Below are positions 1,131 through 62,605 of a DNA stretch of 64,000 nt, piece by piece (position 1 is the first letter of the stretch; each line of letters opens with the position of its first letter). The position numbers were made by a program, and so were the translations under genes. Source of the stretch: Xestospongia bergquistia (lineage: Eukaryota; Porifera; Demospongiae; Haplosclerida; Petrosiidae). The stretch is from positions 1,535,001 to 1,599,000 of the forward strand of contig OZ014411.1 of assembly GCA_963965975.1 (NCBI GenBank), read 5' to 3'. Below the pieces are notes generated by a model that saw only the letters and a program-made list of their open reading frames with translations, was not told the DNA's origin and ran no database searches.

Positions 1131-3040
1131 TGTGACCTGATTTAGAAAAAGGGACCACTTCTGTCAAAAACTTTGCGGCCTGTTTTGTGAAAAAAAAATA
1201 CTGTTAAAACATAACAAAAAAACAGCTTTGCATTCATATAAAATAGTTATTTATACACAACTTGTATGTATACAAAACTGAGATATTTGAGATGTTTTAA
1301 GGTTTGTTACCCCTATGACACTTCATACTCACATAATCCCATCAGTATTTAGAACTTCCATTAAGTTAAATAAGATGAGTTTTCTAGAAAGGTAGCAGAA
1401 ATATACTTTAGATAAATATGTTGTAATTATAATTAAATTACTATTTTAATCTCGTGATTGTTTCCTGTGCTAGTTTTCTCACATGTTCATGTGTATATGT
1501 TTCATTAAGTTATGCATAACATTTTGATTATGTCTAAAACAAATTCATTGAAGTTACAATAATTCAGAAGTCACAATTTTTACAATAATTCAGAAGTCAC
1601 AACTGAAAGCTAGCCACTTCCTCGAAGCCAGTCATAGCGCGCAGGAGAAAGAAGGTCACGCCCATTAAAGGGAGGGTCTGCTATGCTAGTCATCGTTTGC
1701 ATTGCTACATTTAATATTCTTGAGCTAGTAAATATCTATGGTTATTAGTAGCTTCCCGGATAGTTGATAAAATGAAATATTGCTAAATTATTTATTAGTT
1801 CACTCTAAGACTTTAGCAAGTATATATCACATGGAAATTATTGTCTAGTGGTCTATTAGTCAAAAGCTCAGATGATTCTTTATAGAACAGCTAATGATGA
1901 CTGATCATGTAAGTAGACGTTTTGTTGGAAAGGAAATCTTCAGAGAAAGCGGAAAGAATCGTGGGCGTGGTGGTGTTTCCAGATGATTATTAAAAATCAT
2001 AGACAGAAATAGGAAACAGGAGATTTGATAGTATGTTAGTGTATAATTTTGATCATTGCTCAAGTGTAGCACACTAGCTCACCTACATCAATATATATAG
2101 AGTCGCATATTACTCAATATAACATCTAGATGTTAAATGTAACTTTAGTGATGCAATGACTATATATATGCTCTCTCCACAGTTGAAAATTCAATTTTTT
2201 ATACTGAATCAACTATATATGAAGTGATTTACAGAGCTGATGTAGACAGCAACAGGTCTGACAATAATTTTGTCTTTCTTAAATAAATAGGTATAGTATC
2301 ATGTGTGATCAAGATTCTCCAATACCATATTTGAAGTGTAACCAAGTTCATTTAAGTACTATTCAACTTGGTAAGGTGTACATTTAATATGATCAATAGC
2401 TGTTATGAATAAAGTATATACAAACTGTATAAGTAACATATAAATAACTATGATGTTGAGTGGAATGTATAAGAATATAAAAAGTATTGTTATAGATTTT
2501 TCTCATCAGCTTTGTATACATACATCTGTACTGCTTTCTTTGTTATCTAAAGAAAGATTTTTATCCCATACTGTGCTTTACTAATATAGGTCAGAGTTTA
2601 AATTTAGTATTATTTTTTTTGAGAGTACAGGATTGCACAATATAGAAACTATATTTATGATACAGGAACTTCAACCTATGATCGACTATGTCTGGTATTC
2701 TAACAAATAGCTTAAATAATTACAATGGTTTCATGTAAAAATTTCGAAATTGTATTAGGGTCAAGTCTGTTTTTTAACCAACATAACATATAAATGAAAT
2801 ATTACATTGTGTGCACATTCCATAACAGTTATACAAATTGGTAACATAATATCTAGTGAGCTACTAATTGGATACCAAATTGTGTATATACATCATAACA
2901 TTGATACATTATGGCTAATATGACTTCCTGCTGACAAAATATGCACTGTTTAAACTTGAACATGCAAAAGTAAAGTAATATCTAAGTTATATGTAGAAAT
3001 CCTATATTGTCTATTAACTAGTTTTATTTGGTAATACTCA
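1131..3040. repeat. P unit, truncated copy 0
   Basis: From about 1420 this matches the upstream part of the P units at 7.2, 48.2 and 57.1 kb. It includes the 'ccacttcctcgaagccagtc' box (about 1616), a GGGAGGGTCTG box (about 1670) and later landmarks up to 'gttttatttggtaatactcat' at 3020-3040. The TATATAAA of the other units is not recognisable here. A short open stretch at 2302-2372 begins ATGTGTGATCAAGAT and ends at a GTAAGG donor. The same ATGTGTGAnCAAGAT start is kept in the other copies, but their frames close early. There is no repeat exon: homology ends where a dynein remnant begins. Confidence 0.7.
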
Positions 3041-7006: not shown

Positions 7007-7695
7007 TACAAAGAGTAATTCACATAAATTCTACATTCCATAGTAATCCACGCATGTAATGTACAAAGCAATTGTTAAAATTACATATTAATTTTTAAAG
7101 TGAAGTTATAATGAATTAAGGCAGCATAAATAATATTATACTTTACATTAAAAGGTGTTAATCAAATTATAATTATTATGTCTTGATTGAGTCCAATACT
7201 AGTTTCCTCATAAATTAATGCTTCATTATGTTGTGATTTTGGTCATGAAAAGCAACTCAATCTTGTGGACAGGCTTAAGATTGTCAACAGTAGTTACATA
7301 ATGCCATACAATAGACACTCCACATCAACTGATGATTCACGTTGGTTTTCTTTTATTAAAATTAAAAATAAGATAACTTAATTAATAGCTAATTAAGCTT
7401 CTTCCTTTAATTACATACATTTTGATTATGTTAAAAACAGAGACATTTAGGTTACAATTCCAGAAATTACAATGCCAATGCAAATTTGCAAAACATCTAG
7501 TTCCAATTGCTTCAAAATGATCTACGTTTCCTCAACATTATATATACATATATAGATATAACATACAAGGTATTAATGGAGGTATCTGTACAACAAACCT
7601 TCACAAAGAGTTTTATACATTTCAGGTAAAATGTAAAAGCAAGCCAATTCCTCGAATCCAGTCCATAGTTCACAGAAGGAAAGAAGCAACGCCTA

Positions 7696-7730
7696 TTAAA
7701 GGGAGGGGCTGGTATATGAGACTATATAAA
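7696..7730 (+). promoter_or_regulatory. P-unit promoter: GGGAGGGGCTGG plus TATA box
   Basis: AAAGGGAGGGGCTGG is followed by TATATAAA at 7723-7730. The same pair in the same order occurs at 48728-48757 and 57635-57666, where flanking sequence has drifted. Upstream lies a conserved 'caagcca.ttcctcgaa.ccagtc' box. Spacing and orientation predict transcription to the right. Confidence 0.55.
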
Positions 7731-8699
7731 GATCAATCGTTGTTCACAACTTGAATACGCTTGAGTTAGCAAGATTCTGCAGTCATTAGTCTCAAGTAGC
7801 CGATAAAAATTAAACAATTTACTCTAAGACTTTAGCAAGTATATATACGACATGAATATCACTGTCTCTTGTTCTATTAGTCAAAGGCTCAGCTGATTTT
7901 CTTTAAAACAGCTAACAATGACTTATCATGTAAGCAGACTTTTTTCTTGAGAAAGATAAATCCGGATGATCAGGCAAGCAGATACAAAACGTGGGAGTAG
8001 CGAATATGAGGTCCACCAAACTAAATGATAGTGGCTGTACGTTCCAACAGTTAGATGTTTAATGTAATTTTAATATTGGATTGGCTATAAGGACTCACTT
8101 CATAGTTAAGCTTTTAATTTTTCAGACTGAACATACTATGCATGCAGTGATTTAAACAGATAATGTAGACATTATCTGGTCCAATAATAATTTTGTCTTT
8201 TTTAACAAACAGGCATAGCAAAATGTGTGAACAAGATGATCTAACATCATATTTGAAGTTAATCAAGTTTGTTTAAGTACTATTTGGTTTGGTAAGGTGT
8301 ACATTTCATATCATTTATTATTTATTGCTATAGTAAGTCACATAACAAGTCAGTAGCTGTTAACAGATAATGAAGTATATACGAACTGTAAGTAATCTAT
8401 AAGTAACTTTATCTTGATGTTGTGTGGATTATATTGGAAATTAGCTTGTATAGCATGTTATTATTATCTGTGACAAATTTATTTCTGTCAAAACTGAATA
8501 TATCTTGTTTTGATCACAGACTCGGTCCTTTATTGAAAATAAGTTCACAAATTTCATTAGATATGTTCAGCATTAGACAATGTAATACCTGATGCTTTTA
8601 AGAAATATCTGATCTTATTATTTCTAATTAAAAAATTGCTGAAGCTAATAGCTATGTAGAACATGACTATGTATGGAGAATGTTATTACAAAGGCAATG

Positions 8700-8747
8700 T
8701 ACACTCCCTCATACATATATATATATGTGTGTGTGTGAGGGAGTGTA
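8700..8747. repeat. Hairpin in P unit copy 1
   Basis: TACACTCCCTCA (8700-8711) is followed by its perfect complement (8736-8747), with a TA/TG-rich loop. In the other P units (about 49650 and 58550) only the left arm CACACTCCCTCA is present. Confidence 0.7.
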
Positions 8748-9669
8748 TGCATGCATATATATTAAGCTAAAAATAATATCTTATATATTAATCAATCAAA
8801 TGTCCTGTATTGATAATCACAGATTGATATAGTAACTGTGACTTATATTATGATATCTATTAAAAAAATATACTGCATGCAGAATATAATTATGAAGTCT
8901 AAATCTAGTAGAGTATATTTTTGCATGTGTGTGTAATAACAAAGAATATTGTATATAGATTATTCTCAGTAGCTTTATACACACATCACTGCAATGCTTG
9001 TTATCAAAAAATAAGAATTTATCACTATTAGGTATAGTTAGGATGTTTGTGTAGGCTGTTTTTATATTGTAGACACTATAATAGATTATACTGTAATATG
9101 TTGATGTAGTCAGCATATTATTGCATTATAATGACATGTTGTTATCATAATGCAAAAAGAATGATACATAGATTGATTGATCATGATATTGAATAAACAA
9201 TGAATCATTTTAACAGAATTCAAATAAGAAGTTATCCCAAATTGTGATTTACATATATAGCTCAGAGTTTAAATTTAGCAATGGTTACTTTGAGACTACA
9301 GGATTACACATTAGAAACTATATTTATGATACAGGAACTTCAACTTATGATCTACTATGTCTGGTATTTGAACACATACCTTAAGCAATTACAATGTGTT
9401 CATGTAAATATTTCAAAATTGTAGTGGGGTCAAGTCTGTTTAACCAACATAACATATAAATGAAATATTACATTGTGTGCACATTCCATAGCAGTTATAC
9501 AAATTAGTAACGTAATATCTAGTGAGCTACAAATTGGATAGCAAATTGTGTATATACATCATAACATTGATACATCAGAGTACATGGCTAATATGACTTC
9601 CTGGTGACAAAATATGCACTGTCTAAACTTGAACATGCAAAAGTAAAGTAATAATTAAGTTATATGTAG

Positions 9670-10335
9670 ATATGCTATTTCACGGCGGTTGCGCAATTAT
9701 GTACTGGCCGATGCAATTATTGAGTGAGCCGTAGCGCAATTTTGAGCAGTGACCATTACCAAGGCACCTGGACTGTTTTTTCATATATGACTTTAATAAG
9801 TTTATAATACTATCAGTGAAGAAACGACAGGTAGAGTAGTAATATTATTACAAGAAACAAAAACTTACCTTAGTCGATTTGCTTTCTTCAAGGATCGAAA
9901 GCTCCACCCAAAAAATTGACAGGATGTGATTGTGTCATTATGAGATGTGTCCAAGAAAACCTTCGTTGTGCACTTAGTTTACATCGTTTGGCTTAAAACA
10001 AAGTATCAACAGACTCCCCACACAATGAAGAGATCAACTGTATGTTCCTAAAGATGATCAATCCAGTTCTACTGTTTAAGAAATGGCTTCGAAATGTAAG
10101 CGTTTTTTGCCGTAGTATACTACAGAGTTGAGCTTTCATTTTATGGCTTTTCATGTTGGTACGGTAACAAAAACAACCTACCTACCTTGTCACACTAGTT
10201 ACTTACATGTAAGCGTCACGTAGTTTCTATAGTAAGCTTTTAAAGCGTTGCTATTGTTAAAAAAGCATTATTGGAAAAGTAGCCGCCCATGGGCGTGATT
10301 ACAATTAATTTGCCCCGCCCGTCAAAGGTACTGAG
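9670..10335. other. Inserted GC-richer segment in P unit 1, promoter-like
   Basis: The point 'ttatatgtagatatgctat' breaks continuity with copy 0 (about 2990), and homology resumes at 'ctagttttatttggtaatactcat' (10338). Its right half (about 10140-10330) matches 51650-51825 in P unit 2, including 'acttacatgtaagcgtcac' and 'gcccgtcaaagg'. A possible minus-strand exon ends at ACTAAG|GTAAGT (about 9868). A plus-strand ATGGCTTCGAAAT|GTAAGC lies at 10083. Together these resemble a divergent promoter, but no extended coding frame supports it. Confidence 0.35.
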
Positions 10336-10439
10336 CCACTAGTTTTATTTGGTAATACTCATATATATTATAATCTAGTTTCTGCATACACAGCAAGACA
10401 CAGCACTTAAGCTAATAAAATGGTTTTTTTAAAATGATC

Positions 10440-10905
10440 ACATAGACTAAAGGGTTTAAAGGGACTATCTAAATAAACTGCAATTAACACTTTACTAAGC
10501 TTGTTCGCATTAACTCTATAAAGTCTTTAATTTCAAGACTTTAGAAGGTTTAAACTATTGAGTCAAGTTTATAGAGTAAACTGCTCAGTCTAAAGGACTT
10601 AAAGGAACCAACTAAATAAACTGCAATTAACAGTTTATGAAGTTGGTTTGTATTAACTCTCTAAAGTCTTTAATTTAAAGACTTTAGAAGGTTTAGACTA
10701 TTGAGTCAACTTTATAGAGTAAACTGCTCTGTCTAAAGGACTTAAAAGGAATAACTCAATAAACTGCAACTAACAGTTTATTAAGTTGGTTTGCATTAAC
10801 GCTCTAAAGTCTTTAATTTAAACACTTTAGTAGTTTTAGACTATTGAGTGATGTTTATAGAGTATTCTGCTCAATCTAAAGGACTTAAAGAGAATAACAA
10901 CTGGT
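10440..10905. repeat. Tandem repeat, about 143-bp period, about 3.2 copies
   Basis: Each unit contains, in order, 'taaataaactgcaa(t/c)taaca', 'gtctttaattt', a palindrome AAAGTCTTTAATTTAAAGACTTT, 'actattgagt' and 'tctaaaggacttaaa'. Units start near 10450, 10593 and 10737 and differ by scattered substitutions. No frame is open through the array. The other P units lack it. Confidence 0.85.
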
Positions 10906-12405
10906 GTATCAAATTAAAAAGCAATTTCTACACTGTCATTGTCATCATAGAATGATTGACACATCAATTAATAACTGAGTCAGAGACAAAGACTGGATAA
11001 ACATTTACGTTTAGTCAACCACGCGTACAGCTGTAGATTCTACTAAATTTCATATTTCCCGCAGTTTGCGCAATCAGCCCCTCCCTCAAAGGATAAGGCG
11101 TGTGCACTATCGGCAAGACCCTCCTCTTTGCTGAAGCGTATTAGCAAAGTCTTAGATTGATAGATTGTAAATAAATTTTGACCAGACACGCACACATACC
11201 CTTAATTAAATGAAATTGAATTGAAGCACTAGTTAATTATTTTGAACATGTGCATTACTACTGGCTGGTTGAGAACCTGTAGTAGAAATGAAAATGAAAA
11301 AAGAAATAATAAAATTAAATACTGAATATTACGGAAGCCACAGATAGACATTCCAATTCCTTTTTCTTATTTCTTCCGCGAACCTTGGCGTATTTAAAAA
11401 TTCCAATTAACGATCCTGTTGATGAGCCCAATTTCTCATTCTAATTCCATTTTTGGCATGCGCGACATTTCTAGGCTTTTCTTGTGTACTTAATAAAATG
11501 TGGAATATAGAGAGCAATTTACATTTTATTAGTTTATCGTTGTGTGATACCTTTAAAAACAACACAAGCACAATTAGAAATTTATATATATATATAGAAC
11601 TGTTCTAACCCGCTCTGTCTAAACGACATCGAGCACTCTTCAACAGACTTAGATACTTAAGTATATATATATATATATATATGTTATAGTGACCAATTTG
11701 GAATAGCTATGTTTTTTCTAGTAGTTTAACTAAATTTAACATTGCATGATTAGTGCCAACATTGGGTTATATGTTTAATAAAGTAATTTTTTAAGTATTT
11801 TAATTAAGGAAAAGTTAATAAATTAGTGTCTAAGTTAAAGTTATTTATGAACTAGCATATGCATCTTTCTGTGACAGACTACATACGAAATGGTTAATGG
11901 TATGTCATTTGATGCTTTCTGCATTGATAATTCTGTATTTTAAATTGCAGAGACTGTGTATGTGGTAGCTAAAACAGGTATTTATGTAAGATTCATAACA
12001 TTTTAATGAATTACCTATACTGATGAATGTATGAACCAAATATTGATGAAAATGTAAATATTCAGATTAAAATGAGTTAAAAATTAGTGTAAACTTTAGA
12101 ATACAAAATTAAACAATAGAAAACAAAGTAAATATTGTTCTTAAAATGAGTGTGTTCCTCAGTGTGTTGACATTAGAGTTTGTTGTGTAAGGAGAGAAGA
12201 TCTGTGGTAGAGAATATGACATTTGTTGTAAAAGAAGGCCTATGCATTTGTGGGCATATACTATAATAATTTGATAGATTTAAAACAAGTAAACTGCATG
12301 GATATATATGAAGATGGTTGTCTATCATTACAACATTGAAACTCTGTTTTATTAATTATACAGCAATAACAATTTCTGACTAGTATATTAGAATATTGTT
12401 AATTG

Positions 12406-12442
12406 TTAATTAATTCTCAATATTCATATTGAGAATTAATAA
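12406..12442. repeat. Hairpin TTAATTCTCAATA / TATTGAGAATTAA
   Basis: A perfect inverted repeat with a 4-nt loop lies just upstream of the conserved 'ataaattgtagcctgtttacttctg' box, which recurs at 19475-19500. Confidence 0.7.
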
Positions 12443-12499
12443 ATTGTAGCCTGTTTACTTCTGAAGACTGTCTGTCTATGTTAACTACTGTTTTTAAAC

Positions 12500-12680
12500 C
12501 TAGTGGACGCCATGTTTATTCGACGAGCACATGAATAGAACAATCTGATTGGTCAAAGTGATAATTACGAAGGGGTTGTGAATGGCGAGTCCATTTTGAG
12601 AGCAGCTCAAGAAAGACGTTTGGCGAAGAACGCTTTATTATCCTTCGAGCACTCATATAAAATAAAAAAAGAGGTGAGAA
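12500..12680 (+). promoter_or_regulatory. GC-rich CCAAT/YY1-like block of P unit 1
   Basis: This region is relatively GC-rich in AT-rich surroundings. It has CTGATTGGTCAAAG (inverted CCAAT), ATAATTACGAAGG, GTCCATTTTGAGAG (related to the YY1 core GCCATTTTG), and ends at AAGAGGTGAGAATC, a good splice-donor match. The same order (ATTACGAAA, GACGCCATTTTGAAA, TTCGAGAGAAGACAGCG, AAGGTGA) occurs at 51885-51985 and 60780-60885. I infer a second core promoter with a noncoding first exon. No long coding frame crosses it in any copy. Confidence 0.45.
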
Positions 12681-13440
12681 TCATACAAGCACTAGTTACC
12701 TGATAAACACAGCGGGTCTGGTTGTCAAAACGTCTGATAAAGAATTTGTTTATGGAATTTTTATATAAGGTCAACTGACTACTTACCTGATCAATTTCAA
12801 GCCCTATCCTAGTCTTTTAGATCATAAATAAGATATCAACGGGTCGTATCAATTCTAAAGTACATTTTATATCGTCATTAATGTGAGATATTATTGTATT
12901 AAAAACAACAATATTCATTTATATTTACTATTATATTTCTTGTTACTTTTAGTCAATAGACAAACATATGTACTCAATTGACTTTAATAGTTAACAAGAA
13001 AAAATGGTGAGTTTTAACACACTTCCATATTTCATAATTTTCTACCGAATGACCTAATTGTTTGACCTAACTTAATGACATATATGTAGACCAAAATGAG
13101 GGTGCCTTAAGAACTATTGTTTGTACATAGCTCGAGGGAGAAGTACTGGATTGCATACATTACATGTAGCTGATTTGCTTTTTAAAGTCAGGATTAAATC
13201 TTATGCACAGCATTAACTCACCATTTATTATTTACTTGTCAAAAGCAACCAATATTGCTATTATCATTGCTGTTGTATTGTATTTTATTTTGTAAAGTAT
13301 TTGGCTAGTTCCTATAGCGAAAACTGTAATATCTGAAGAGAAAGCTAAAGCATGTTACTACTTTATGCAAATACTTATATATATGCTTCAGTTCATATGT
13401 GAATAATATAATTTTCTTACAGAGATATTTTTCATTTCAG

Positions 13441-13608
13441 GATCCTGTGGTCACCATCCTATTTATTAGAGATGCTTTACGTTCACTTGTTCTTAGACTA
13501 TTAAATATTAATAATAACAACCTACTAAATATTAATAATAACAACCTACATGACCCAGTAATGGATATAAACAATGGACATCAGATCATAGAGCTTGTTA
13601 TTAACTAG
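13441..13608 (+). CDS. P-family last exon with one repeat (ancestral or contracted)
   Basis: A strong acceptor (tttttcatttcag) precedes GATCCTGTGG; the frame then runs 55 residues to TAG at 13606-13608. It aligns with the starts of the exons at 52947 and 61875 (ILFIRDALRSLVLRLLNINN against IVFIRENLNLLVFQMLNINN). The LNINN segment is duplicated, followed by a single LHDPVMD unit and the end IIELVIN, matching MELVVR in the other copies. So the exon ends are conserved while the repeat number is one instead of 32 or 14. The upstream ATG used by the others (MKYLFYLFSLQ) is not conserved here, which favours the splice-acceptor reading. Coding status is uncertain because no 5' exon is proven. Confidence 0.5.
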   Translation, partial: DPVVTILFIRDALRSLVLRLLNINNNNLLNINNNNLHDPVMDINNGHQIIELVIN

Positions 13609-13760
13609 TAAATCATAATACAATTGTCTTATTGTTAAGCTAATTATTTGTATGTGTTATTGGTTTAGTTAATTACATTGCATTTGTCTAGCAACTTATT
13701 TTATAGATTCAGTTACCTGCTTTTTGAGAACATAATAAACAATATGTAATAGATGGAAAC

Positions 13761-41798: not shown

Positions 41799-41837
41799 GC
41801 ACACATATATGAAAACATCAGATTGTCAAAACAATCT

Positions 41838-42185: not shown

Positions 42186-42539
42186 TAATTATAAAGACAA
42201 AATGGTTAGCAAATATCAAATAATTTCCTTTGTACATGTTTTGCTAAATGGGTTCAAGTACAGGATCATGTGGGACAGACATAGGTCCCAAAGCACCATT
42301 AGATGACATTTAAAGTGTGTTGTTTTTGAACTATTTTGAAAGTGATAGGTTGTCATGTGATCTAGCACAAACATGTAACTGTGTGGCTTAAAAAAATTAA
42401 ACTGGCTACTTAAAAGATTGTTTCCTTTTTGTTGTTCCTATAAAATAAATAATGACAAAAATTAATATAATTAGTAGTGTTGTTATAGTTTGCTTAAGCA
42501 GGACTAGTTTTATTCTTGACCTTTAAAAATATAATTTAA

Positions 42540-43026
42540 TTTTAGTTATTTAAACGGCTCACAGATGCCAACTAGCGTTAATGATATTCACAGGCGAGAA
42601 ACAGCGCGCCCCACAAGAGCATGAAGACAAAATCTGCAGTACATATAAAAGGAAACGAAAACCACCATGGATAGGTTGTGTTGTGGGCCAGCGTTCTGCA
42701 ATGCATCAGACCTCTGAGATGGTTACCAGCATACTCTACGGAGTATCCGAAAGGCCGACTAGGATAGGGCTGGTAGTCTCCCTTTAAACGAGAAGAGGCT
42801 GGTGTATTTGCGGTTCCCGGTTCCTGAATGCGACATTCCCTAAGAGCTGGAATCCCGTACGGCTGGTTTTAAGTTAGGGCGATGCTCCAGCCAGGATTAC
42901 CTCGCGAAGACGAGGGTTACCAAGCCAGGTGGCGGTCCCAGCTAGCAATAGCAGGGAATCCTGGAGCCTAAGTGGAAGCCTGAGTGGGTGAGCGAGTAGG
43001 AATCGTTTGGGCAACACAACATGTTT
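42540..43026. repeat. GC-rich conserved repeat element, copy 3
   Basis: Nearly identical to copies 1 and 2. It keeps the 68-codon frame (42581-42787) and is followed by the doubled 20-bp element and the diverged half-element at about 43262-43440. Confidence 0.6.
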
Positions 43027-44437: not shown

Positions 44438-45469
44438 TTACAAAATTTCAAAAACAACCTTATTAGCATGAGAAGGATTACTTCCACAGTCTATAGGATT
44501 ATCCTTCTTCATTGTGTTATCCTAAGAGAAAAGACATCAACTATTACTTATACAGGATACTATTATTATATCTGCTGTTTCATTCTTTTGCTCTTTTGAG
44601 GTTGCATAAGCCAATTCATAAAGGAATCAAAGCCAAAATTATCTTAGCTTGGGACGTCTTCTTTTCAGTTGATTCGATACCCTGACTACTTCTATTACTA
44701 ACAACTTTTTTCTTTCCTGTAAATAAAACATAGTATTCCTTAGAGCCATTGTGATACCTGATGTGTATTATTTCTCTCAAAAGCAGGTAAGCCAATAAAT
44801 AATTGGCTAAAATGATGATGAAAACATACCTTAATTTGAGATATCTTCTCTTTACTTGAATCAGTTAAGTCGTCATCAACTGATGTTTCTTCATTTTGTT
44901 CCTCTTTATGCATGTGTATATAAGGTTAATTACTATGATTAACAAATTTACTTTAAAATGTGATATTTCTTCTTCTGCTGAATTATTTAAGCTATCGTCA
45001 CTACTTAGTCTTTCTTCCTTCTTCTATCCTAAGAAATATCTTTAAATAGAAAATGACAACAAAGTAGTGTTACATTACCTGACATTCCCTTTCTTTACTC
45101 AATACCTGCATCATGTTTAAGTTAACTCAATAAGAAGATCAAGGAAGTTACTTTAATTTGGTTTTAATCTCATCTTTAGTTGAGTCACTGTTGTCATGAT
45201 GTCAACTATCTTCTTTGTTTCCTTTGACAAGAGTTAAAAAGCTTATAAAATTAACAAATCATTATTATACATTTATATAACTTACTTTAGTTTGAAGTGT
45301 CCTTTATTTGAGAGCATTCTTGACTCTATCATCATTTTCGTCTCTCCATTTTATATTTTGTTGCTATAAAGTATGTATTGCTTATGCTAAGTAGGTGGTT
45401 GTCATCTGAACGTTCTTCTTCTTACTTTTTTTCTATAGCACATATCATCTAAGACTACAAGAAATATCG
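44438..45469 (-). pseudogene. Mini-exon gene, copy 3, lacking exon 1
   Basis: Contains the terminal exon (stop at 44438-44440) and the internal short exons up to the breakpoint at 45469. Exon 1 and the promoter are missing, so it cannot be expressed as in copies 1 and 2. In one exon the donor reads ACTTTAG-like ('cttactttag' on the plus strand) instead of CTTACCTTAG. Confidence 0.55.
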
Positions 45470-47975: not shown

Positions 47976-48727
47976 TGTTCGTTGTGCTATTCATTTTGTC
48001 AATAAAAAATCTTCTATTAGTATGACGATCAGAAGCATAAGTTGCATTTACTATGTAGTTTATTGCTTCCTCAGTCAGGTTCGCATCTTTTTGTTGTGTC
48101 ATTGCTTTTTGGACACTTTAAAAAGTTCTCTAGGTGGATAAAGCTCTCCATTTAACTATTTTATTAATGTAATGATGCTTTCTTATGCAATTTTTCTTAC
48201 AAATCATGTTTTGTTACATAATTGTCACTTAAAATACGAAAAGGATCTCAATCTTGTGGACAGGCATAAATACACAATTCTTTGTACCTAATATTGTCAA
48301 CAGTAGGTACATAATGCTATATAATGCACACTATACATCAACTAATGATTCACTTTTGCTTCTTTTTCATTTAAATTAAAAATGATATTTATAACTTAAT
48401 TAATTGGATGTTGTTCCTTTAGTGACATATGCTTTGAAAAGTAATCATGACATTTTGATTATATTAAAAAGGGATACATTTAGGTCACAATTCAGAAGTC
48501 ACAATGCCAGTGCAAAACAACTAGTTGGAATTACCTCAAAATAACCTACGTTTCCTGAACGTTATATATACATATATAGAGTTTATGGACGTAATGTACA
48601 AGGTGTTAATCGAGGTACCGGTACAGCAAACCTTCACAAAGAGATTTATACATTTTAGGAATCATGTGAAAGCAAGCCACTTCCTCGAAGCCAGTCAGCT
48701 CACATAAAGAAGCCATGCCTATTACTG

Positions 48728-48757
48728 GGAGGGGCTGGCTATACCAGACTATATAAA
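48728..48757 (+). promoter_or_regulatory. P-unit 2 promoter: GGGAGGGGCTGG plus TATATAAA
   Basis: TATATAAA at 48750-48757, 12 bp after GGGAGGGGCTGG. Conserved in P units 1 and 3. Confidence 0.55.
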
Positions 48758-51700
48758 GATAAGTCGATTGGTATATCAGCTAGTAGATAAAAATAAAATA
48801 GTTTACTCTAAGATTTTAGCAAGTATATACTTCATGGAATATCACTGTCTTATGTTCTATTAGTCAATTGCTAAGCTGATTGTCTTTAAAACTGCTAATA
48901 ATGACTAATCAAGAAAGCAGACTTTTTTGGAAAAAAACTCAGAGCAAGCAGAAACAAAACGTGGGAGTAGTGAGCATGATAGCTGCTTAGCTAAATGATA
49001 GTGGCTGTCCTTGAAACTGTTCCAATATCTAGATGCTAAAGGTAACTTTAATAATGGATTTTTATATAAGTACTCACTTCACACTTGAGCTTTCAATTTT
49101 CAGACTGAACCAACTATACATGCAGTGATTTAAAGAAGCTGATGTAAATGTCATCTAGTCTAATGATAATTTTGTCTTCCTTAACAAGCAGACATAGCAA
49201 AATGTGTGAACAAGATGTTAAAATGCCATATTTAAGTTAATCACGTTCATTTAAACACTATTGACTGGTAAGTTGTACATTTAATATGATTAATTGTATA
49301 AGTCAAGTAACAAGTCACAAACTGTTAAAAGAGAATAAAGATATACAAACTGTAAATAACGTATAAATAACTATGTCTACATGTTGATTGGATTGTATGG
49401 CAATTATCTTGTAACATGTTGTTATATGTGACAGAGGGATATATACTATTTTGATCACAGAAATAGTTCCCTTATTGAAAATAAGTTCACAAATTTCGTC
49501 AGATATATTTTGGATCAGACAATGTAATACTTGATGCTTTTAAGAAACATCATTTGTTCTATGCATATTTGTTATTTCTAATTATAAAATTACTGGGTAT
49601 GTAGGACATGACTATGTATGGTAGTTATGATAACAATAATGATATATATATACACACTCCCTCACACGGCATGAATATGTATCATGCTAAAAATGATATT
49701 TTTATATTAAACAATGTAATGTCCTGTGTTGAAAATCACAGAGTAATACTCTATCTGTGACTATAATTATCTATATATAGCACTATCAAAAATATATGAT
49801 CAATGTACATGCTTTGCGAGTATAATTATGAAGTTTAAATATAAAATTGGAGTATTTTTTTGCATGTAATAACAAAAAGCATTGTATACAGACTTTTCTC
49901 AGCAGCTCTATATGCAAATATCACTGCAATGCTTTTATTGTTATCTAGAAAAATGAATTTATCATTATTAAGTATGATGTTTGTGTAGGTTGTTTTTATA
50001 CTGTAGACACTATACCATAATAGACTATACTATACTATGATGATGCATGCAGTCAGCAAATAAGAACAGTATAATGACTTGTTGTTATCATAATACAAAT
50101 GAATGACTATATGGTCTAATAATATACCTTTGAGTTCAAATTTAGTAATATTAATTTTACTATGGACTCTAGGATTACACATTAGAAACTATATGTTATG
50201 CCACATGAGCAGCAATCCATCATCTCCTATACCAATCATCTACTATGTAAGATATTCAAGCAAATAACTTAAGCAATTACAATTTTTTCATGTAAAAATT
50301 TTAAAATTGTAGAGGTAGGATATGTTTAGCCAACATTATTAACATGTAAATGAAATAATACATTGTGTGGACAATCCATAGCAGTTATACATATTTGTAA
50401 AATAACCTTTAGTTATAGTTACAAATTGGGTAGTAATTTGTGCATGCACATAACACTAACACATACAGAATACATAAGCTAAGTATGAAATATTAAAATA
50501 TATACAAAAAGCAATGTATGCAAAACTGGCAGTCAAATTTGAACATGTATATAGAAGTAAAATAATAATGAAGTTATATATGTAGACAGGTCATATTATG
50601 TTGTCAAATTGTATTTTAAGTACTGATACTACTTCAAATAGTTTTTATTTGTCGTTCTATGTTTCTACATCAAGCTAATATAATAGTTTCATAGGTGTTA
50701 CAAAAATATGAAATCGACACCATTATCACAAAAAGTGTTAGAAACTTATTTTTTACACAATCATGCAATGTAACAAAATACTGCACAGTTTTTAAAAATC
50801 ATGAAAAAGCAAAACTATTTTTAGTTTATTAGTTTATCTTTGTGCATTACCTTTTAAAACAATGCAAACATAATGAGCAATTTATAAATATATATGCGTA
50901 ATGATAAGCTGACTGTTATAATGACAATTTAGAATAGTTATGGTTTTATCTTATTCGATAGCCATTGTAACTAATTTTAACATTTCATTATTGTTGCCAA
51001 CATTGGGTTATATGTTTTAATAAAGTATAGTTTTATAAATATTCAAGTTAGGGAAAATATAATAAAAATGTGTCTATTTAAGAACTGGCAAATGTATCCT
51101 TCTGTGCCAGACTATATATGAAATGGAACATGATGTATATTGCTTTCTGCTTTGACAATTATTGTGTTTTAAAATGTAGAGGCTGTGTATGTTATAGCTA
51201 AAAGGAGGTATTTATTAAATGTAAGATATGTAGCATTTTAGTAACACACTATAGTGGCTGATGCATGTATAAACCAAATATTAATGTAATGTAAAATGAA
51301 ACAAAACCCTCATATTAGAATGGGATAAATCAGTGTAAACTTTACAATATAAAAGTAAACAACAGAAATAAAGTAAATATTGGTCTTAAAATGATTGTGT
51401 TTCTCAGTGTGTTGACACTGGATTTTGTGGTGTAAGGATAGAAGATGTATGTTAGAGAATTAGACATTTGGTGTAAAAGAAGGTCTATATATATTGTGGG
51501 CACACACCATATTTTGATAGACTTAAATCAAGTAAACCACATCGATAAATAGCTGCTATATGAAGGTGGTTTTTCGATTTTTGACTGATATATAAGAACA
51601 TTATTATTGCTATTAATGAATGTCCATCCAGATTTGAGCTTGCATTTCATGGCTTTTGTTGTTGTTATGGCAACAGCAACAATCTATCTACCCTGCCAAA

Positions 51701-51884
51701 CTAATTGTTTACCTGTAAGCGTCACTTAGTTGCTAGCTTTTAAACGTTAAAAAAATTATTGCAAAAGCAACCGGCCACGGGTATTAATACATTTACATTT
51801 AATTTGCCCTTCCCATCAAAGGATTAACTAACAAACAACACAAACATAATAATGCGCAATTTATATATATTTACATTTGTACAG

Positions 51885-51985
51885 CCATAATTACGAAAGG
51901 CGCGGCCATAGGGGCGGCGGAAAGGGGTGACGCCATTTTGAAATAGGTTCGAGAGAAGACAGCGCTTTCTTTCGCCATTAAGGTG
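51885..51985 (+). promoter_or_regulatory. GC-rich YY1-like block and donor, P unit 2
   Basis: ATTACGAAAGGCGCGGCCAT, GTGACGCCATTTTGAAA (YY1-like GCCATTTTG) and TTCGAGAGAAGACAGCG are followed by ATTAAG|GTGAAA. Unit 3 has AAG|GTGAGA, a better donor. Probably a core promoter with a noncoding first exon. Confidence 0.45.
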
Positions 51986-52946
51986 AAATATTATCATATT
52001 AAAAGCAGCAATATTCATATATAATTTACTAAAACATTTTTTGTTATTTTTAGCTTACAGGCAAATATATATACTCAATAGGCTCTATTTACTTTCTGAC
52101 TTAAAAAGCATATAGCAAGAAAAACATGGTATCTACTTAGAATGTTTTAATGGCTACAAATTCCAATATATTATAATCCTATTATGGAATTACTTTTATT
52201 TGATGGTGGATACAGTATTTAAATGTGTCAACTAGCCTCTTGACAACAGTTGTCTCATGCATGAAGAATGAGAGTAGTTCTAAGAGAAAATGATAGTTAA
52301 AAGTCCATTGTTTATACATACAATGACAGAGAAGAAGAAGACAGCTCTAAGTTTCTAGACTAGGAGTTAACAGAGAAAACCTGGGAAGTTTTCAGGTTTT
52401 AGACCAGACATAATGAAGACTGCATTTGAGTAATAAAGATTACAAGAGAAACCATGAAGTTAGTTTAGCCATTAAATGAAGTGGCATGTTTTTAGCAATG
52501 ATGACATCAAAGATGTCTTCATATTATAAACAAAATAAAACCTATTTCTATTCATCAAATTTACGCCAGTTGTATCAGAAATATTATATATGTGAGATGT
52601 TTCTACACATTATTATGAATTGCATACAACATTTGTAGCTGATTTAACGTCAGGCTATGCACTGTATTAACTCACATTTCATTATTTACATAAAATCAAG
52701 TCTATGATATTGCTACAATCATTATTGTCCTATTATAATTTATCTTGTAAAGTGTCTGGCTAGTTATTATAGCTAAAATTGGAATATTTTTATAGAAGGC
52801 TCTAAAACCTAGTTCTACTCATACTAAATGTATGTGCTTATATATTAGATATATAAATTTTAATATGCATATGAACAATGTAATATTTTGATATATGATA
52901 ATGCATTATCTTTATGAAATATTTATTTTATTTATTTTCATTGCAG

Positions 52947-54173
52947 GATCTGATTCTCATTATGTTTCAAATGTTAAATATCAACAATGACCACATACAT
53001 GACCCAGTAGTGGTTGAAGAAAGTGACGACGTACATGAGCCAGTAGTGGTTGAAGACAATGTTTACCTACATGACCCAGTAATGGTTGAAGACAATGACA
53101 ACCTACATGAGCCAGTAATGGTTGAAGAAAATGACCACATACATGAGCCAGTAGTGGTTGAAGAAAATGACGACGTACATGAGCCAGTAGTGGTTGAAGA
53201 AAATGACGACGTACATGAGCCAGTAGTGGTTGAAGACAATGTTTACCTACATGACCCAGTAATGGTTGAAGAAAATGACCACATACATGAGCCAGTAGTG
53301 GTTGAAGAAAATGACCACATACATGACCCAGTAGTGGTTGAAGAAAATGACGACGTACATGAGCCAGTAGTGGTTGAAGAAAATGACGACGTACATGAGC
53401 CAGTAGTGGTTGAAGACAATGTTTACCTACATGACCCAGTAATGGTTGAAGACAATGACAACCTACATGAGCCAGTAATGGTTGAAGAAAATGACCACAT
53501 ACATGACCCAGTAATGGTTGAAGAAAATGACCACATACATGAGCCAGTAGTGGTTGAAGAAAATGACCACATACATGAGCCAGTAGTGGTTGAAGAAAAT
53601 GACGACGTACATGAGCCAGTAGTGGTTGAAGAAAATGACGACGTACATGAGCCAGTAGTGGTTGAAGACAATGTTTACCTACATGACCCAGTAATGGTTG
53701 AAGAAAATGACCACATACATGAGCCAGTAGTGGTTGAAGAAAATGACCACATACATGAGCCAGTAGTGGTTGAAGAAAATGACGACGTACATGAGCCAGT
53801 AGTGGTTGAAGAAAATGACGACGTACATGAGCCAGTAGTGGTTGAAGACAATGTTTACCTACATGACCCAGTAATGGTTGAAGACAATGACAACCTACAT
53901 GAGCCAGTAATGGTTGAAGAAAATGACCACATACATGACCCAGTAATGGTTGAAGAAAATGACCACATACATGACCCAGTAGTGGTTGAAGAAAATGACG
54001 ACGTACATGAGCCAGTAGTGGTTGAAGAAAATGACGACGTACATGAGCCAGTAGTGGTTGAAGACAATGTTTACCTACATGACCCAGTAATGGTTGAAGA
54101 CAATGACAACCTACATGAGCCAGTAATGGTGGAAAACAATACTTTTCAGAAGATGGAACTCGTTGTTCGTTAG
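52947..54173 (+). CDS. P-family repeat protein, 32 acidic/His 12-mers
   Basis: The exon follows a strong acceptor (tatttattttcattgcag) and stays open to TAG at 54171-54173. If the upstream ATG at 52914 is used instead, the product is 419 residues with a hydrophobic leader (MKYLFYLFSLQDLILIMFQM). After LNINN come exactly 32 units of 12 residues (36 bp), then TFQKMELVVR. Four unit types (VYLHDPVM, DNLHEPVM, DHIH[D/E]PV, DDVHEPVV) recur in order, giving a higher-order period of 5-7 units. Each unit has 1-2 His and 3-5 acidic residues, so the protein is very acidic and could bind metal ions. No family is recognised. Compared with 61875 it lacks 10 codons (VFIRENLNLL) of the non-repeat part. Confidence 0.65.
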   Translation, partial: DLILIMFQMLNINNDHIHDPVVVEESDDVHEPVVVEDNVYLHDPVMVEDNDNLHEPVMVEENDHIHEPVVVEENDDVHEPVVVEENDDVHEPVVVEDNVYLHDPVMVEENDHIHEPVVVEENDHIHDPVVVEENDDVHEPVVVEENDDVHEPVVVEDNVYLHDPVMVEDNDNLHEPVMVEENDHIHDPVMVEENDHIHEPVVVEENDHIHEPVVVEENDDVHEPVVVEENDDVHEPVVVEDNVYLHDPVMVEENDHIHEPVVVEENDHIHEPVVVEENDDVHEPVVVEENDDVHEPVVVEDNVYLHDPVMVEDNDNLHEPVMVEENDHIHDPVMVEENDHIHDPVVVEENDDVHEPVVVEENDDVHEPVVVEDNVYLHDPVMVEDNDNLHEPVMVENNTFQKMELVVR

Positions 54174-54555
54174 AGTGATGATGCAATTGTGTTAATTAAG
54201 GTGCAATGTCTATTAGTTGTATGTAGCAATACATGCATACCTCCTTTTTTATTGGTATAGTTAATTACGTTGTGTTTGTCTAACAACCATTGTTATGATT
54301 CATATGGAATATTGTTCATAAATACATTTTGAGAACAAGTACTATAGTTAAACATGCATTGTATATATGTTTATTACTATTTGCAAGTATAGTATAAATA
54401 TCATTTCATATTTTTATTTATCAAACATATTTCTAATTAGGCTTAAATAATTGAACAACATATGACTGACTTCAAGTTACTAGCAATAATAAAATTAGCC
54501 TATTCATATGTTTATTGCTTTCAATATTCATTTTATTTCACCAAACAAAAAATGT
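54174..54555 (+). other. 3' flank of P gene 2
   Basis: Noncoding; shares 'attggt.tagttaatta' and 'ttttgagaaca' landmarks with the 3' flank of P exon 1 (13609-13760), so the UTR is part of the duplicated unit. Confidence 0.6.
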
Positions 54556-54863: not shown

Positions 54864-55901
54864 TCAAGATTCAAGGATGATTCTTTGCCAGAGGAAAGAG
54901 TGGTGAGCTAGGATAGAAGGGTTATTCCAGTTTATGGAGTGGCCAGTCTGGCAGACATGTTCAGATACACCACTAGAACAAATGTCCAGTTTTCGCATTG
55001 CTCTCTTGTGTTCAGTGATGCGTTGTGATATATTTCTGCCAGTTTGTCCAATATAACTTGCCTCACAGTCTTGGCAAGAAATCTGATAAAAGACACCAGA
55101 CTTCTTTGTGATGGGTAATGTATCTTTAGGCCTTGATAAGATTTTTCTTAAGGTGTTTTGTGGTCTAAAGGTGGTTTCTATGCCAAGAGGGGAGAGAATC
55201 CTTTTTATAGATTCTGGTTTGCCTTGTACATAAGGAATGGTGATTCTAGTTGTTTTTTGGTCACTAGTGTTAGGTGGTTTTGTTTTTAGGGTAGAGTGTC
55301 TTTGGCATCTTTTGATGAAATTTATTGGATACCTGTTCTTTTGTAGAGCCTGAAAGATAAGAGATTCTTCCTCCACCTGTTGTACAAAGGAGGACGAGTG
55401 TGTTAAGGCCCTGAAAATAAAGAGCGACAAACAGATAGTTTGTGAGAGGAAGGGTGGTGGGATGAGAACTGAAGGGGGTCTGTTTCCAATAAACTGCAGT
55501 GGATAAAACTGTCCTCTAAATGAAAAGTAAGTGGCTTTGAGACAGAACTCAAGAAGCTCTCTATCTCTAGTGATGAGGATGTCCAAAAAGGGCAAACAGC
55601 CATTACTTTCCATCTCTACTGTAAACTGGATTGAAGGTTCAATGGAGTTGAGATGTTGATGGAAACTCTCAACCATCGAAGGTAGTAGGGCGACACAGGT
55701 GTCATCTACATACCTTTTGCAGAAAATAGGAGGGTGTGAAAAGGAGGTTAAGGCCCTTTGTTCTATATTCTCCATCACCATATCTGCTACAATCACAGAC
55801 ACAGAGGAACCCATAGCAGTTTCAAAAATTTGTTGATAAAACTGTCCTCTAAATGAAAAGTAAGTGGATTTGAGACAGAACTCAAGAAGCTCTCTCTTCA
55901 A
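54864..55901 (-). pseudogene. Penelope-like reverse transcriptase/GIY-YIG protein, rearranged
   Basis: A 345-codon frame. It begins inside the RT palm (TYFSFRGQFYQQIFETAMGS, MGSSVSVIVADMVME), followed by the catalytic KRYVDDT motif and FLDILITR. The expected 'VYRKPTHT' segment is then replaced by a second copy of LLEFCLKATYFSFRGQFY. The following stretch is out of frame: FSSHHPSSHKLSVC is found in the other frame (55403-55603). The frame recovers at RALTHSSSF. The GIY-YIG domain is present: SGVFYQISCQDCEASYIGQT, then RITEHKRA. The N-terminal RT is missing, so the element is dead. Confidence 0.85.
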
Positions 55902-55980
55902 TAAAGTACCAATTGAGTTAGCAATTTATGTCGCAAGGGAACGTCTACAAGTAGACAACACCTTAGAGGACAGAACTGCC

Positions 55981-57079: not shown

Positions 57080-57634
57080 TATTAATGTAATGATGCCTTC
57101 TTATGCAAGGTTTCTTACAAATCATGTTCTGTTACATAATTGTCACTTAGAGTATGAAAAGGATCTCAATCTTGTGGACAGGCACAAATACACAATTCTT
57201 TGTACCTAATATTGTCAACAGTAGGTACATAATGCTATATAATGCACATTATACATCAACTAATGATTCACTTCAGCTTCTTTTTCATTAAAATTAAAAA
57301 TAATATTTATAATTGGAAGTTGTTCCTTTAGTGTCAATATGCTTTGAAAGTAATCATGAAATTTTGATTATATTAAAAAGGGATACATTTAGGTTACAAT
57401 TCAGAAGTCACAATGCCAGTGCAAAACAACTAGTTGGAATTACCTCAAAATAACCTACGTTTACTGAACATTATATATACATATATAGAGTTTATAGACG
57501 TAATGTACAATGTGTTAATCGAGGTATCAGTACAGCAAACCTTCACAAAGAGATTTATACATTTTAGGAATCATGTGAAAGCAAGCCATTTTCTCGAAGC
57601 CAGTCAGCTCACGTAAAGAAGCCATGCCTATTAC

Positions 57635-57666
57635 TGGGAGGGGCTGGCTATACCAGACTATATAAA
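57635..57666 (+). promoter_or_regulatory. P-unit 3 promoter: GGGAGGGGCTGG plus TATATAAA
   Basis: TATATAAA at 57659-57666, same spacing from the G-rich box as in unit 2. Sequence just downstream is shortened by about 12 bp relative to unit 2. Confidence 0.55.
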
Positions 57667-60600
57667 GAATATCAGCTAGTCGATAAAAATAAAATAGTTT
57701 ACTCTAAGATTTTAGCAAGTATATACTTCATGGAATATCACTGTCTTATGTTCTATTAGTCAATTGCTAAGCTGATTGTCTTTAAAACTGCTAATAATGA
57801 CTAATCATGAAAGCAGACTTTTTTGGAAAAAAACTCAGAGCAAGCAGAAACAAAACGTGGGAGTAGTGAGCATGAGGTCTGCTTAGCTAAATGATAGTGG
57901 CTGTCCTTGAAACTGTTCCAATATCTAGATGCTAAAGGTAACTTTAATAATGGATTGACTATAAGTACTCACTCCACTCTTGAGCTTTCAATTTTTCAGA
58001 CTGAACCAACTATACTTGCAGTGATTTAAAGAAGCTGATGTAAATGTCATCTAGTCTAATGATAATTTTGTCTTCCTTAACAAGCAGACATAGCAAAATG
58101 TGTGAACAAGATGTTAAAATGCCATATTTAAGTTAATCACGTTCATTTAAACACTATTGACTGGTAAGTTGTACATTTAATATGATTAATTGTATAAGTC
58201 AAGTAACAAGTCACAAACTGTTAAAAGAGAATAAAGATATACAAACTGTAAGTAACGTATAAATAACTATGTCTACATGTTGATTGGATTGTATGGCAAT
58301 TATCTTGTAACATGTTGTTATATGTGACAGAGGGATATATACTATTTTGATCACAGAAATGGTTCCCTTATTGAAAATAAGTTCACAAATTTCGTCAGAT
58401 ATATTTTGGATCAGACAATGTAATACTTGATGCTTTTAAGAAACATCATTTGTTCTATGCATATTTGTTATTTCTAATTATAAAATTGCTGGGTATGTAG
58501 GATATGACTATGGTATGGTAGTTATGATAACAATAATGATATATATATATACACACTCCCTCACATGTGCATGAATATGTATCATGCTAAAAATGATATT
58601 TTTATATTAAACAATGTAATGTCCTGTGTTGAAAATCACAGAGTAATACTCTATCTGTGACTATAATTATCTATATATAGCACTATCAAAAATATATGAT
58701 CAATGTACATGCTTTGCGAGTATAATTATGAAGTTTAAATATAAAATTGGAGTATTTTTTTGCATGTAATAACAAAAAGCATTGTATACAGACTTTTCTC
58801 AGCAGCTCTATATGCAAATATCACTGCAATGCTTTTATTGTTATCTAGAAAAATGAATTTATCATTATTAAGTATAATGTTTGTGTAGGTTGTTTTTATA
58901 CTGTAGACACTATACCATAATAGACTATACTATACTATGATGATGCATGCAGTCAGCAAATAAGAACAGTATAATGACTTGTTGTTATCATAATACAAAT
59001 GAATGACTATATGGTCTAATAATATACCTTTGAGTTCAAATTTAGTAATATTAATTTTACTATGGACTCTAGGATTACACATTAGAAACTATATGATATG
59101 CCACATGAGCAGCAATCCATCATCTCCTATACCAATCATCTACTATGTAAGATATTCAAGCAAATAACTTAAGCAATTACAATTTTTTCATGTAAAAATT
59201 TTAAAATTGTAGAGGTAGGATATGTTTAGCCAACATTATTAACATGTAAATGAAATAATACATTGTGTGGACAATCCATAGCAGTTATACATATTTGTAA
59301 AATAACCTTTAGTTATAGTTACAAATTGGATAGTAATTTGTGCACGCACATAACACTAACACATACATAATACATAAGCTAAATATGAAATATTAAAATA
59401 TATACAAAAAGCAATGTATGCAAAACTGGCAGTCAAATTTGAACATGTATATAGAAGTAAAATAATAATGAAGTTATATATGTAGACAGGTCATATTATG
59501 TTGTCAAATTGTATTTTAAGTACTGATACTACTTCAAATAGTTTTTATTTGTCGTTCTATGTTTCTACATCAAGCTAATATAATAGTTTCATAGGTGTTA
59601 CAAAAATATGAAATCGACACCATTATCACAAAAAGTGTTAGAAACTTATTTTTTACACAATCATGCAATGTAACAAAATACTGCACAGTTTTTAAAAGTC
59701 ATGAAAAAGCAAAACTATACACAGCAATTTTTAGTTTATTAGTTTATCTTTGTGCATTACCTTTTAAAACAATGAGCAATTTATAAATATATATGCGTAA
59801 TGATAAGCTGACTGTTATAATGACAATTTAGAATAGTTATGGTTTTTTCTTTTTCGATAGCCAGTGTAACTAATTTTAACATTTCATTATTGTTGCCAAC
59901 ATTGGGTTGTATGTTTTAATAAAGTATAGTTTTATAAATATTCAAGTTAGGGAAAATATAATAAAAATGTGTCTATTTAAGAACTGGCAAATGTATCCTT
60001 CTGTGCCAGACTATATATGAAATGGAACATGATGTATATTGCTTTCTGCTTTGACAATTATTGTGTTTTAAAATGTAGAGGCTGTGTATGTTATAGCTAA
60101 AAGGAGGTATTTATTAAATGTAAGATATGTAGCATTTTAGTAACACACTATAGTGGCTGATGCATGTATAAACCAAATATTAATGTAATGTAAAATGAAA
60201 CAAAACCCTCATATTAGAATGGGATAAATCAGTGTAAACTTTACAATATAAAAGTAAACAACAGAAATAAAATAAATATTGGTCTTAAAATGATTGTGTT
60301 TCTCAGTGTGTTGACACTGGATTTTGTGCATGGTGTAAGGATAGAAGATGTATGTTAGAGAATTAGACATTTGGTGTAAAAGAAGGTCTATATATATTGT
60401 GGGCACACACCATATTTTTATAGACTTAAATCAAGTAAACCACATCGATAAATAGCTGCTATATGAAGGTGGTTTTTCGATTTTTGACTGATATATAAGA
60501 ACATTATTATTGCTATTAATGAATGTCCATCCAGATTTGAGCTTGCATTTTATGGCTTTTGCTGTTGTTATGGCAACAGCAACAATCTATCTACCCTGCC

Positions 60601-60779
60601 AAACTAATTGTTTACCTGTAAGCGTCACTTAGTTGCTATCGTAAGCTTTTAAACGTAGCTATCGTTAAAAAAATTATTGCAAAAGCAACCGGCAACGGGT
60701 ATTATTACATTTATTTTCCCTTCCCATCAAAGGGTTAACTAACAAGCATAATAATACGCAATTTATATATATTTACATT

Positions 60780-60885
60780 TGTACAGCCATAGTTACGAAA
60801 AGGCGCGCCCATAGGGGCGGCGAAAGGGGTGACGCCACTTTGAAAGAGGTTCGAGAGAAGACAGCGTTTTCTTTCGTCATTAAGG
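60780..60885 (+). promoter_or_regulatory. GC-rich YY1-like block and donor, P unit 3
   Basis: GTGACGCCACTTTGAAAGAG and TTCGAGAGAAGACAGCG are followed by ATTAAG|GTGAGA. The YY1-like core is changed (GCCACTTTG) relative to unit 2. Confidence 0.4.
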
Positions 60886-61874
60886 TGAGATGTTATCATA
60901 TTAAAAGCAGCAATATTCATATATAATTTACTAAAATATTTTTTGTTATTTTTAGCTTACAGGCAAATATATATACTCAATAGGCTCTACATGCATGTAT
61001 TTACTTTCTGACTTAAAAAGCATATAGCAAGAAAAACATGGTAACTCCTTAGAATGGTTTAATGGCTACAGATTTCAATATATTATAATCCTATTATGGA
61101 ATTACCTTTATTTGATGGTGGGTACAGTATTTAAATGTGTCAACTAGCCTCTTGACAACAGTTGTCTCATGCATGAAGAATGAGAGTAGTTCTAAAAGAA
61201 AATGATAGTTAAAAGTCCATTGTTTGTACATACCATGACAGAGAAGAAGACAGCTTTAAGTTTTTAGTCTAGGAATTAACAGAGAAAACCTGGGAAGTTT
61301 TCCGTTTTTAGACCAGACATAATCAATGTGAGTAGACTGAATTTGAGTAATAAAGATTACAAGAGAAACTATGAAGTTAGTTTAGCCATTAAATGAAGTG
61401 GCATTTTTTTAGCAATGATAACATCAAAGATGTCTTCATATTATAAACAAAATAAAACCTATTTCTATGCATCAAATTTATGCCAGTTGTATCAGAAATA
61501 TTATATATGTGAGATGCTTCTACACATTATTATGAATTGCATACAGCATTCGTAGCTGATTTAAAGTCAGGTTATACACTGTTTTAACTCACGATTCATT
61601 ATTTACACAAAATCAAGTCTATGATATTGCTACAATAATTATTGTTGTATTGTACTTTATCTTGTATAGTTCTGGCAACTTATTATAGCTAAAATTGGAA
61701 TAATTGTATAGAATTATAATAATTATATATAAAGCCTAGTTCTACTCATACTAAATGCATATGCTTATATATTAGATATATAAATTTTAATATGCATATG
61801 AACAATGTAATATTTTGATATATGATAATTCATTTATCTTTATGAAATATTTATTTTATTTATTTTCATTGCAG

Positions 61875-62462
61875 GATCTGATTCTCATCATTGTATTTAT
61901 TAGAGAAAATTTGAATTTGCTTGTGTTTCAAATGTTAAATATTAACAACGACCACATACATAAGCCAGTAATGGTTGAAGACAATGACCACGTACATGAG
62001 CCAGTAATGGCCGAAGACAATGACCATGTACATGAGCCAGTAATGGTCGGAGACAATGACCACATACATGAGCCAGTAATGGTTGAAGACAATGTTAACC
62101 TACATGAGCCAGTAATGGTTGAAGACAATCACAACCTACATGAGCCAGTAATGGTACACGTACATGAGCCAGTAATGTTTGAAGACAATGTCAACCTACA
62201 TGAACCAGTAATGGTTGAAGACAATGACCACGTACATGAGCCAGTAATGGTTGAAGACAATGACCACGTACATGAACCAGTAATGGTTGAAGACAATGAC
62301 CACGTATATAAACCAATAATGGTTGAAGAGAATGACCTCATACATGAGCAAGTAATGGTACACGTACATGAGCCAGTAATGTTTGAAGACAATGTCAACC
62401 TACATGAACCAGTAATGATGGAAAACAATACTTTTCAGAAGATGGAACTCGTTGTTCGTTAG
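61875..62462 (+). CDS. P-family repeat protein, 14 acidic/His repeats
   Basis: Same acceptor (ttattttcattgcag) and same exon start as unit 2, with the fuller non-repeat part (DLILIIVFIRENLNLLVFQM). Reading from the ATG at 61815 gives 215 residues. Fourteen units follow, mostly [DV][HN][VIL]HEPVMVEDN, then MMENNTFQKMELVVR and TAG. Two places carry a shortened pair (HNLHEPVMV then HVHEPVMFEDN), a 12-nt in-frame deletion that has been copied. All length changes keep the frame, which supports coding. The ORF end is immediately followed by a retrotransposon LTR, so the natural 3' UTR is displaced. Confidence 0.65.
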   Translation, partial: DLILIIVFIRENLNLLVFQMLNINNDHIHKPVMVEDNDHVHEPVMAEDNDHVHEPVMVGDNDHIHEPVMVEDNVNLHEPVMVEDNHNLHEPVMVHVHEPVMFEDNVNLHEPVMVEDNDHVHEPVMVEDNDHVHEPVMVEDNDHVYKPIMVEENDLIHEQVMVHVHEPVMFEDNVNLHEPVMMENNTFQKMELVVR

Positions 62463-62605
62463 TGTAGTAACTCTATACATGCATTGTTTATTTAGTGATG
62501 TAATGTGTTTTGTAATGATGTAATGTATTTTGATAGTTTCTCTATTTATGTAAGTCGAGTTATTGTTTTGTTAAGAATAATAAAGTTGTAACCGAAGTTA
62601 TCACA
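62463..62605 (+). mobile_element. 5' LTR of a Ty3/gypsy-type retrotransposon
   Basis: Begins TGTAGTAACTC and ends ...GAAGTTATCACA, with the TG...CA ends of LTRs; 143 bp. An AATAAAG polyadenylation signal lies at about 62577-62583. A primer-binding-site-like TGGTGACGAGGTG follows 2 nt later (62608-62620). The left edge is exact because P unit 2 continues differently after the same stop codon. The 3' LTR is outside the window. Confidence 0.7.

Follow-up and report, generated by a model that had tools for sequence, protein, structure and literature searches.

A probable young coding minisatellite in a candidate terminal exon of a duplicated gene cluster of the sponge Xestospongia bergquistia

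Three copies of one exon, harboring one, 14, and 32 units of a 36-bp repeat, lie within 50 kb of one another in the stretch of DNA analysed here (64,000 nucleotides, referred to as the window; the assembly containing it counts 146,460,797 bases in 21 contigs). The copy with 32 units (copy C) is probably a young coding minisatellite, which would represent the terminal exon of a fast-evolving gene belonging to a duplicated cluster. The coexistence of the three copies makes the likely order of birth, spread, and homogenisation of the repeat readable. The two paralogues of copy C, referred to as copies B and D, had been overlooked in an earlier note on this DNA, and it is their comparison with copy C that reveals the likely order of events.

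The candidate terminal exon of copy C (52947..54173, + strand), delimited on the basis of its translation and of an acceptor-like sequence, is composed of 408 sense codons plus the stop. It is immediately preceded by the splice-acceptor-like sequence TTTTCATTGCAG, which is identical in the sister copy D, and the first AUG (52962, + strand), opening the sequence MFQMLNINN..., is in frame after the predicted splice junction. The array (52989..54140, + strand) consists of 32 contiguous, ungapped DHIHEPVVVEEN units of 36 bp, i.e., 12 residues each, with no stop and no frameshift, and it is followed by the residues TFQKMELVVR and then by the stop codon. An independent detection with TRF returned a period of 36, 31.9 copies, 90% matches, and 0% indels. 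Hence, both the translation and TRF bear out the 32 tandem 12-residue units described in the earlier note for 52947-54173, and the positions that it had assigned to the VYLHDPVM type (units 3, 8, 13, 20, 25, and 31) are exact in the translation. Upstream of the array, a candidate 5'UTR exon 1 (51890..51982, + strand; its start is a guess) was recognised from the sequence and from the alignment of the three copies; it ends with CATTAAG before a donor-like GTGAAA, the predicted intron running from there to 52946, and it contains no ATG either in copy C or in copy D.

The units of copy C are not randomly arranged, and a higher-order periodicity of 5 and 12 units is superimposed on the 36-bp one. 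Identical units are found at lag 12 in 10 out of 20 comparisons and at lag 5 in 7 out of 27, these being the peaks among the lags listed; when the order of the units was shuffled 500 times and all lags between 1 and 16 were considered, the lag-12 value was never matched, in agreement with the recurring order of units reported previously. The longest repeated run comprises five units and was equalled in 3 of the 500 shuffles. Just 10 distinct DNA units exist among the 32 (mean within-array identity 0.898), and each of the units from 2 to 31 has at least one partner identical to it at the DNA level. The ordered unit types thus look like copied blocks of DNA, and copy C combines the two features expected of a coding minisatellite, that is, a period that is a multiple of three within an open frame and a recent homogenisation with duplication of blocks. 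As for the statement of the earlier note that lengths vary in frame throughout, it holds for the differences between paralogues, which are multiples of 3; within copy C it is uninformative, since with a 36-bp unit and no indels the frame is automatically maintained.

The exon of copy C is embedded in segment C of a duplicated block (48162..54302, + strand), whose nearest partner in the self-BLAST is 57080-62465, with 93% identity over 48162-53492, part of the array included; upstream, segments C and D share 97.1% identity across 4,730 aligned columns. The resemblance of segment C to segment B (7276..13711, + strand; partly rearranged, including the first-exon region) extends up to 54302. Two more distant relatives of the block exist: segment A, a partial older copy retrieved by self-comparison (about 1507..3005, + strand), in which the repeat exon was not found, and segment E, located to the left of the window (about -12000 to -5200 in window positions). 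When the 5' flank (51800-52990) was searched against the whole genome, copies C and D stood alone among the best candidates listed, the more distant copy B not being among these. A block of about 300 bp is conserved in the five-copy alignment (48690..48990, + strand; 57600-57890; about 7640-8030; plus the left-flank copies) and contains TATATAAAG in B, C, and D. In E, A, and B it includes the donor-like sequence CAT|GTAAG, altered in C and D, and it is a candidate distal promoter, which may comprise a very small first exon. At 48525-48728, the mismatches between B and C are distributed as 7, 2, and 16 over the three codon positions of a 60-codon open frame, a skew that may be due to chance among many windows.

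The sister exon, copy D (61875..62462, + strand), has the same ends as copy C and an array of 14 units (61950..62429, + strand), among which 13 distinct DNA units occur, with a mean within-array identity of 0.858; four residues are missing, in frame, at two of its unit junctions. The more distant paralogue, copy B (13441..13608, + strand), consists of 55 codons and carries one 12-residue unit, NNLHDPVMDINN, placed by alignment at 13540..13575 (+ strand; position counted by hand on the translation). This single NNLHDPVMDINN unit is likely to correspond to the pre-expansion state. The ancestral exon would have contained a single 36-bp segment, persisting as one unit in copy B. The amplification of this segment, in frame, would have preceded or accompanied the split between C and D, since both arrays begin with a unit of the DHIH type, finish with one of the NLHEPVM type, and share the V/D-x-L and DH types. 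Later and recently, copy C would have been re-amplified in blocks of several units (lags 5 and 12), and copy D would have retained fewer and more diverged units. Slippage and unequal exchange are the usual mechanism of this kind of repeat expansion, and either might account for the re-amplification of the blocks. The product of translation, if any, would be an acidic repeat protein (pI about 4) starting with MFQMLNINN.

The evidence that the frame of the exon is, or was, coding can be considered moderate. Exons B, C, and D all start after an acceptor-like sequence, share phase and frame, and are terminated at the same position. The frame of copy B remains open over its 55 codons, an outcome reached in a fraction of 0.002 of 2,000 simulations in which the DNA next to it was modelled as a first-order Markov chain. 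Every difference in length between the exons is a multiple of 3: C and D differ by 33 nt, two sites in D differ by 12 nt each (which may go back to one event that was later copied), and B contains a tandem repeat of 24 nt. Of the 21 gaps that appear when C and D are aligned upstream of the exon, only 6 have this property. In both C and D, the first ATG that follows the predicted junction is in frame. All of this argues against a non-coding minisatellite, i.e., an array outside any translated sequence (untranslated or intergenic) whose frame would be open by chance, its period of 36 being divisible by three, an explanation that we regard as rather unlikely. Some observations fit it, however. 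The antisense frame of copy C is likewise open, over 404 codons (no antisense frame of copies B and D is stop-free), and just 3 of the 108 single-base changes of the consensus unit would generate a stop, so that, in a 36-bp array this close to perfect, an open frame is a weak indication of coding. The predicted exon of copy B is an exception in having no in-frame AUG before the unit, and therefore this copy may be decayed or its start may lie in an exon not seen here.

The same explanation is also compatible with the pattern of substitutions. No synonymous excess was found among the units: the synonymous codon-position differences are 2 out of 14 in C and 8 out of 26 in D (12 and 18, respectively, being non-synonymous differences from the majority codon), compared with a neutral synonymous share of 0.18-0.25 (two-sided p 0.12-1.0 for kappa 1-4), the counts being small and the differences not being independent events. 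The non-repeat ends of the exon have diverged no less than the nearby non-coding DNA: 43 of 126 sites differ between B and D, versus 79 of 279 between B and C in the intron beside the exon (p 0.24 against the exon ends) and, over three blocks located upstream, 530 of 2660 (p 0.0003 against the exon ends), a test that compares different pairs (B/D and B/C) on blocks picked by similarity, and from which a fifth block, around the candidate exon 1 (78 of 220 sites differing between B and C), was left out. The lack of a synonymous excess, together with the divergent exon ends, leaves the coding status short of proof, and constraint on the protein of copies C and D is not detectable. The array is most probably a tolerated coding minisatellite, presumably variable in length between individuals, and the function of the repeat protein is most likely weak or absent.

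The predicted protein of copy C, counted from the first AUG, is 403 residues long, contains 133 Asp+Glu, 43 His, and 2 Lys+Arg, lacks Cys, and has a pI of 4.05. This strongly acidic composition, of the kind looked for in biomineral proteins, and the presence of His4 in 32 out of 32 units would be in agreement with a functional acidic protein binding metal or mineral and maintained by selection, in which the number of repeats would tune the binding capacity. Such a role, proposed in the earlier note from the regular spacing of His and acidic residues, appears nonetheless highly improbable, and the proposal finds no support in the present data, given that this spacing can be a by-product of the homogenisation of the DNA. 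The invariance reaches the third codon positions: the codons of His4, Pro6, Val7, and Glu10 are the same at all three bases in 32 out of 32 units, so that recent copying explains these residues without invoking selection on them. In copy D, one unit out of 14 has Tyr in place of His4 and one out of 14 has Gln in place of Pro; the small and non-independent counts of synonymous differences show no excess that would point to selection on the protein, and inspection of the residues that follow the first AUG of copy C (MFQMLNINN...) revealed no secretion signal, although the coding sequence may begin in an upstream exon.

The product can fairly be described as a repeat protein that is unrecognised and shows a higher-order organisation; seeded scans of viral and prokaryote collections yielded no relatives. 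Profile searches point to one family resemblance, from which it might be argued that each 12-mer corresponds to two hexapeptides and that the array folds as a long helix, i.e., a left-handed hexapeptide beta-solenoid. Among the Pfam matches with E<=1, hexapeptide-type families are three out of four for C and two out of three for D, with LbH_EIF2B (PF25084) at 2.3e-18 in C (66.5 bits, cut-off 54) and at 3.4e-5 in D (24.2 bits); in NCBIfam, hexapeptide transferases account for eight out of eight matches for C (best 2.8e-20) and for five out of six for D (best 3.4e-7). We take the families so counted in both collections to be hexapeptide proteins. Seven controls, in which the 12 positions were permuted identically in all units, never matched a hexapeptide family in Pfam or NCBIfam; their best E-value in NCBIfam was 3.2e-11, weaker than that of C, and none of them was above any NCBIfam cut-off. 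Yet one of them scored 6.4e-19 against an unrelated Pfam family, and three out of seven exceeded the cut-off of such a family. The controls thus indicate that the hexapeptide resemblance is specific to the order of the residues and that the E-values are inflated by repetition.

Other data speak against this fold, which we regard as improbable. In NCBIfam, both C and D score far under the cut-offs (best 72.7 versus 207 bits). In the best single unbroken register, 7 of the 66 hexads of C and 1 of the 29 of D conform to the hexapeptide pattern, [LIV]-[GAED]-x2-[STAV]-x, although the test is not clean, since the stretch of QdtC used as a yardstick itself reaches just 5 of 24; in any register, the matches per 100 residues are 1.7 (C), 0.6 (D), and 5.5 (QdtC). 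Copy C shares with LpxA, LpxD, GlmU, and the eIF2B epsilon domain, all characterised by the hexapeptide left-handed beta-helix, the profile resemblance and a hydrophobic residue every sixth position, and it differs from them in its near-perfect 12-mers, in the few hexads fitting the pattern, and in the sub-cut-off NCBIfam scores. In the AlphaFold2 model, C forms a solenoid (pLDDT 80, pTM 0.63); D is modelled poorly (pLDDT 56, pTM 0.41), and none of the 71 Foldseek matches has E<=0.001. In addition, AlphaFold2 is known to give confident but false solenoids for perfect repeats (PMC11795689). It appears quite improbable, too, that copies B, D, and C represent successive stages in the birth of a repeat fold, with a hexapeptide-like 12-mer folding copy C as a beta-solenoid. 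The case also serves as a warning: with near-perfect repeats, profile E-values can be strong and an AlphaFold2 model confident, and yet they prove neither family nor fold.

A tolerated coding minisatellite in a gene cluster, the reading preferred here, can be compared with other repetitive loci. The composition of the repeat protein is presumably not silk-like. A likeness exists at the level of the locus with the spidroin MaSp2 of Argiope, for which clustered genes with hierarchical and homogenised coding repeats are described (PMC9779670): in both cases, paralogues of a gene cluster differ in repeat content, the repeats form hierarchical blocks, and homogenisation acts within the gene. In comparison with the MaSp2 genes, the sponge locus has no repeated introns, is far smaller, and is known from its sequence. 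The cluster makes it possible to test whether the array is translated before selection acts. The genome is that of an animal, since it contains Wnt domains at three places on three contigs (nine matches, counted exon by exon), none being present in 14 control genomes; for the demosponge Amphimedon queenslandica, only three Wnt genes have been reported (PMC4902976). In the same genome, two other loci, L005 (NISYEPVLTTQH-type repeats) and L003 (DRDRLTHSPVST-type repeats), show a 12-residue period like that of copy C, the repeats lying within open frames that are 121 and 488 codons long, respectively; they match the array with 25-27% identity, which is perhaps compositional. In L005 (1468-1833), the NISYEPVLTTQH-type repeats are located directly downstream of a transmembrane-like segment and are followed by Tyr-rich motifs.

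Several other elements surround the exon copies. Directly after the stop codon of copy D, a retroelement is inserted on the + strand (L029, 62463..66840, thus running past the window edge at 64000), with TG...CA ends and a 5-bp target duplication, GTTAG, by which the TAG of copy D was preserved. It encodes an aspartyl protease above the Pfam cut-off and a zinc knuckle slightly under it, and we assume it to be of the Ty3/gypsy type; a stretch of 244 bp close to its left end is found again close to the right one with 95.9% identity, and its right end is not simply a terminal repeat. Between C and D, an open frame of 353 codons (54864-55925, - strand), perhaps a fragment of a Penelope-like element, scored 22.2 bits for GIY-YIG (cut-off 22.6). 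The region 18033-26930 (- strand) harbors several similar Cys-rich open frames with a signal-like N-terminus and a hydrophobic C-terminus, whose products are, judging by inspection, perhaps GPI-anchored; no Pfam family was above cut-off in the two frames scanned. Lastly, the region 30732-45469 contains a 5.2-kb block present twice in tandem (97.7% identity), with a third copy of about 3.6-3.8 kb (97.3-98.6%).
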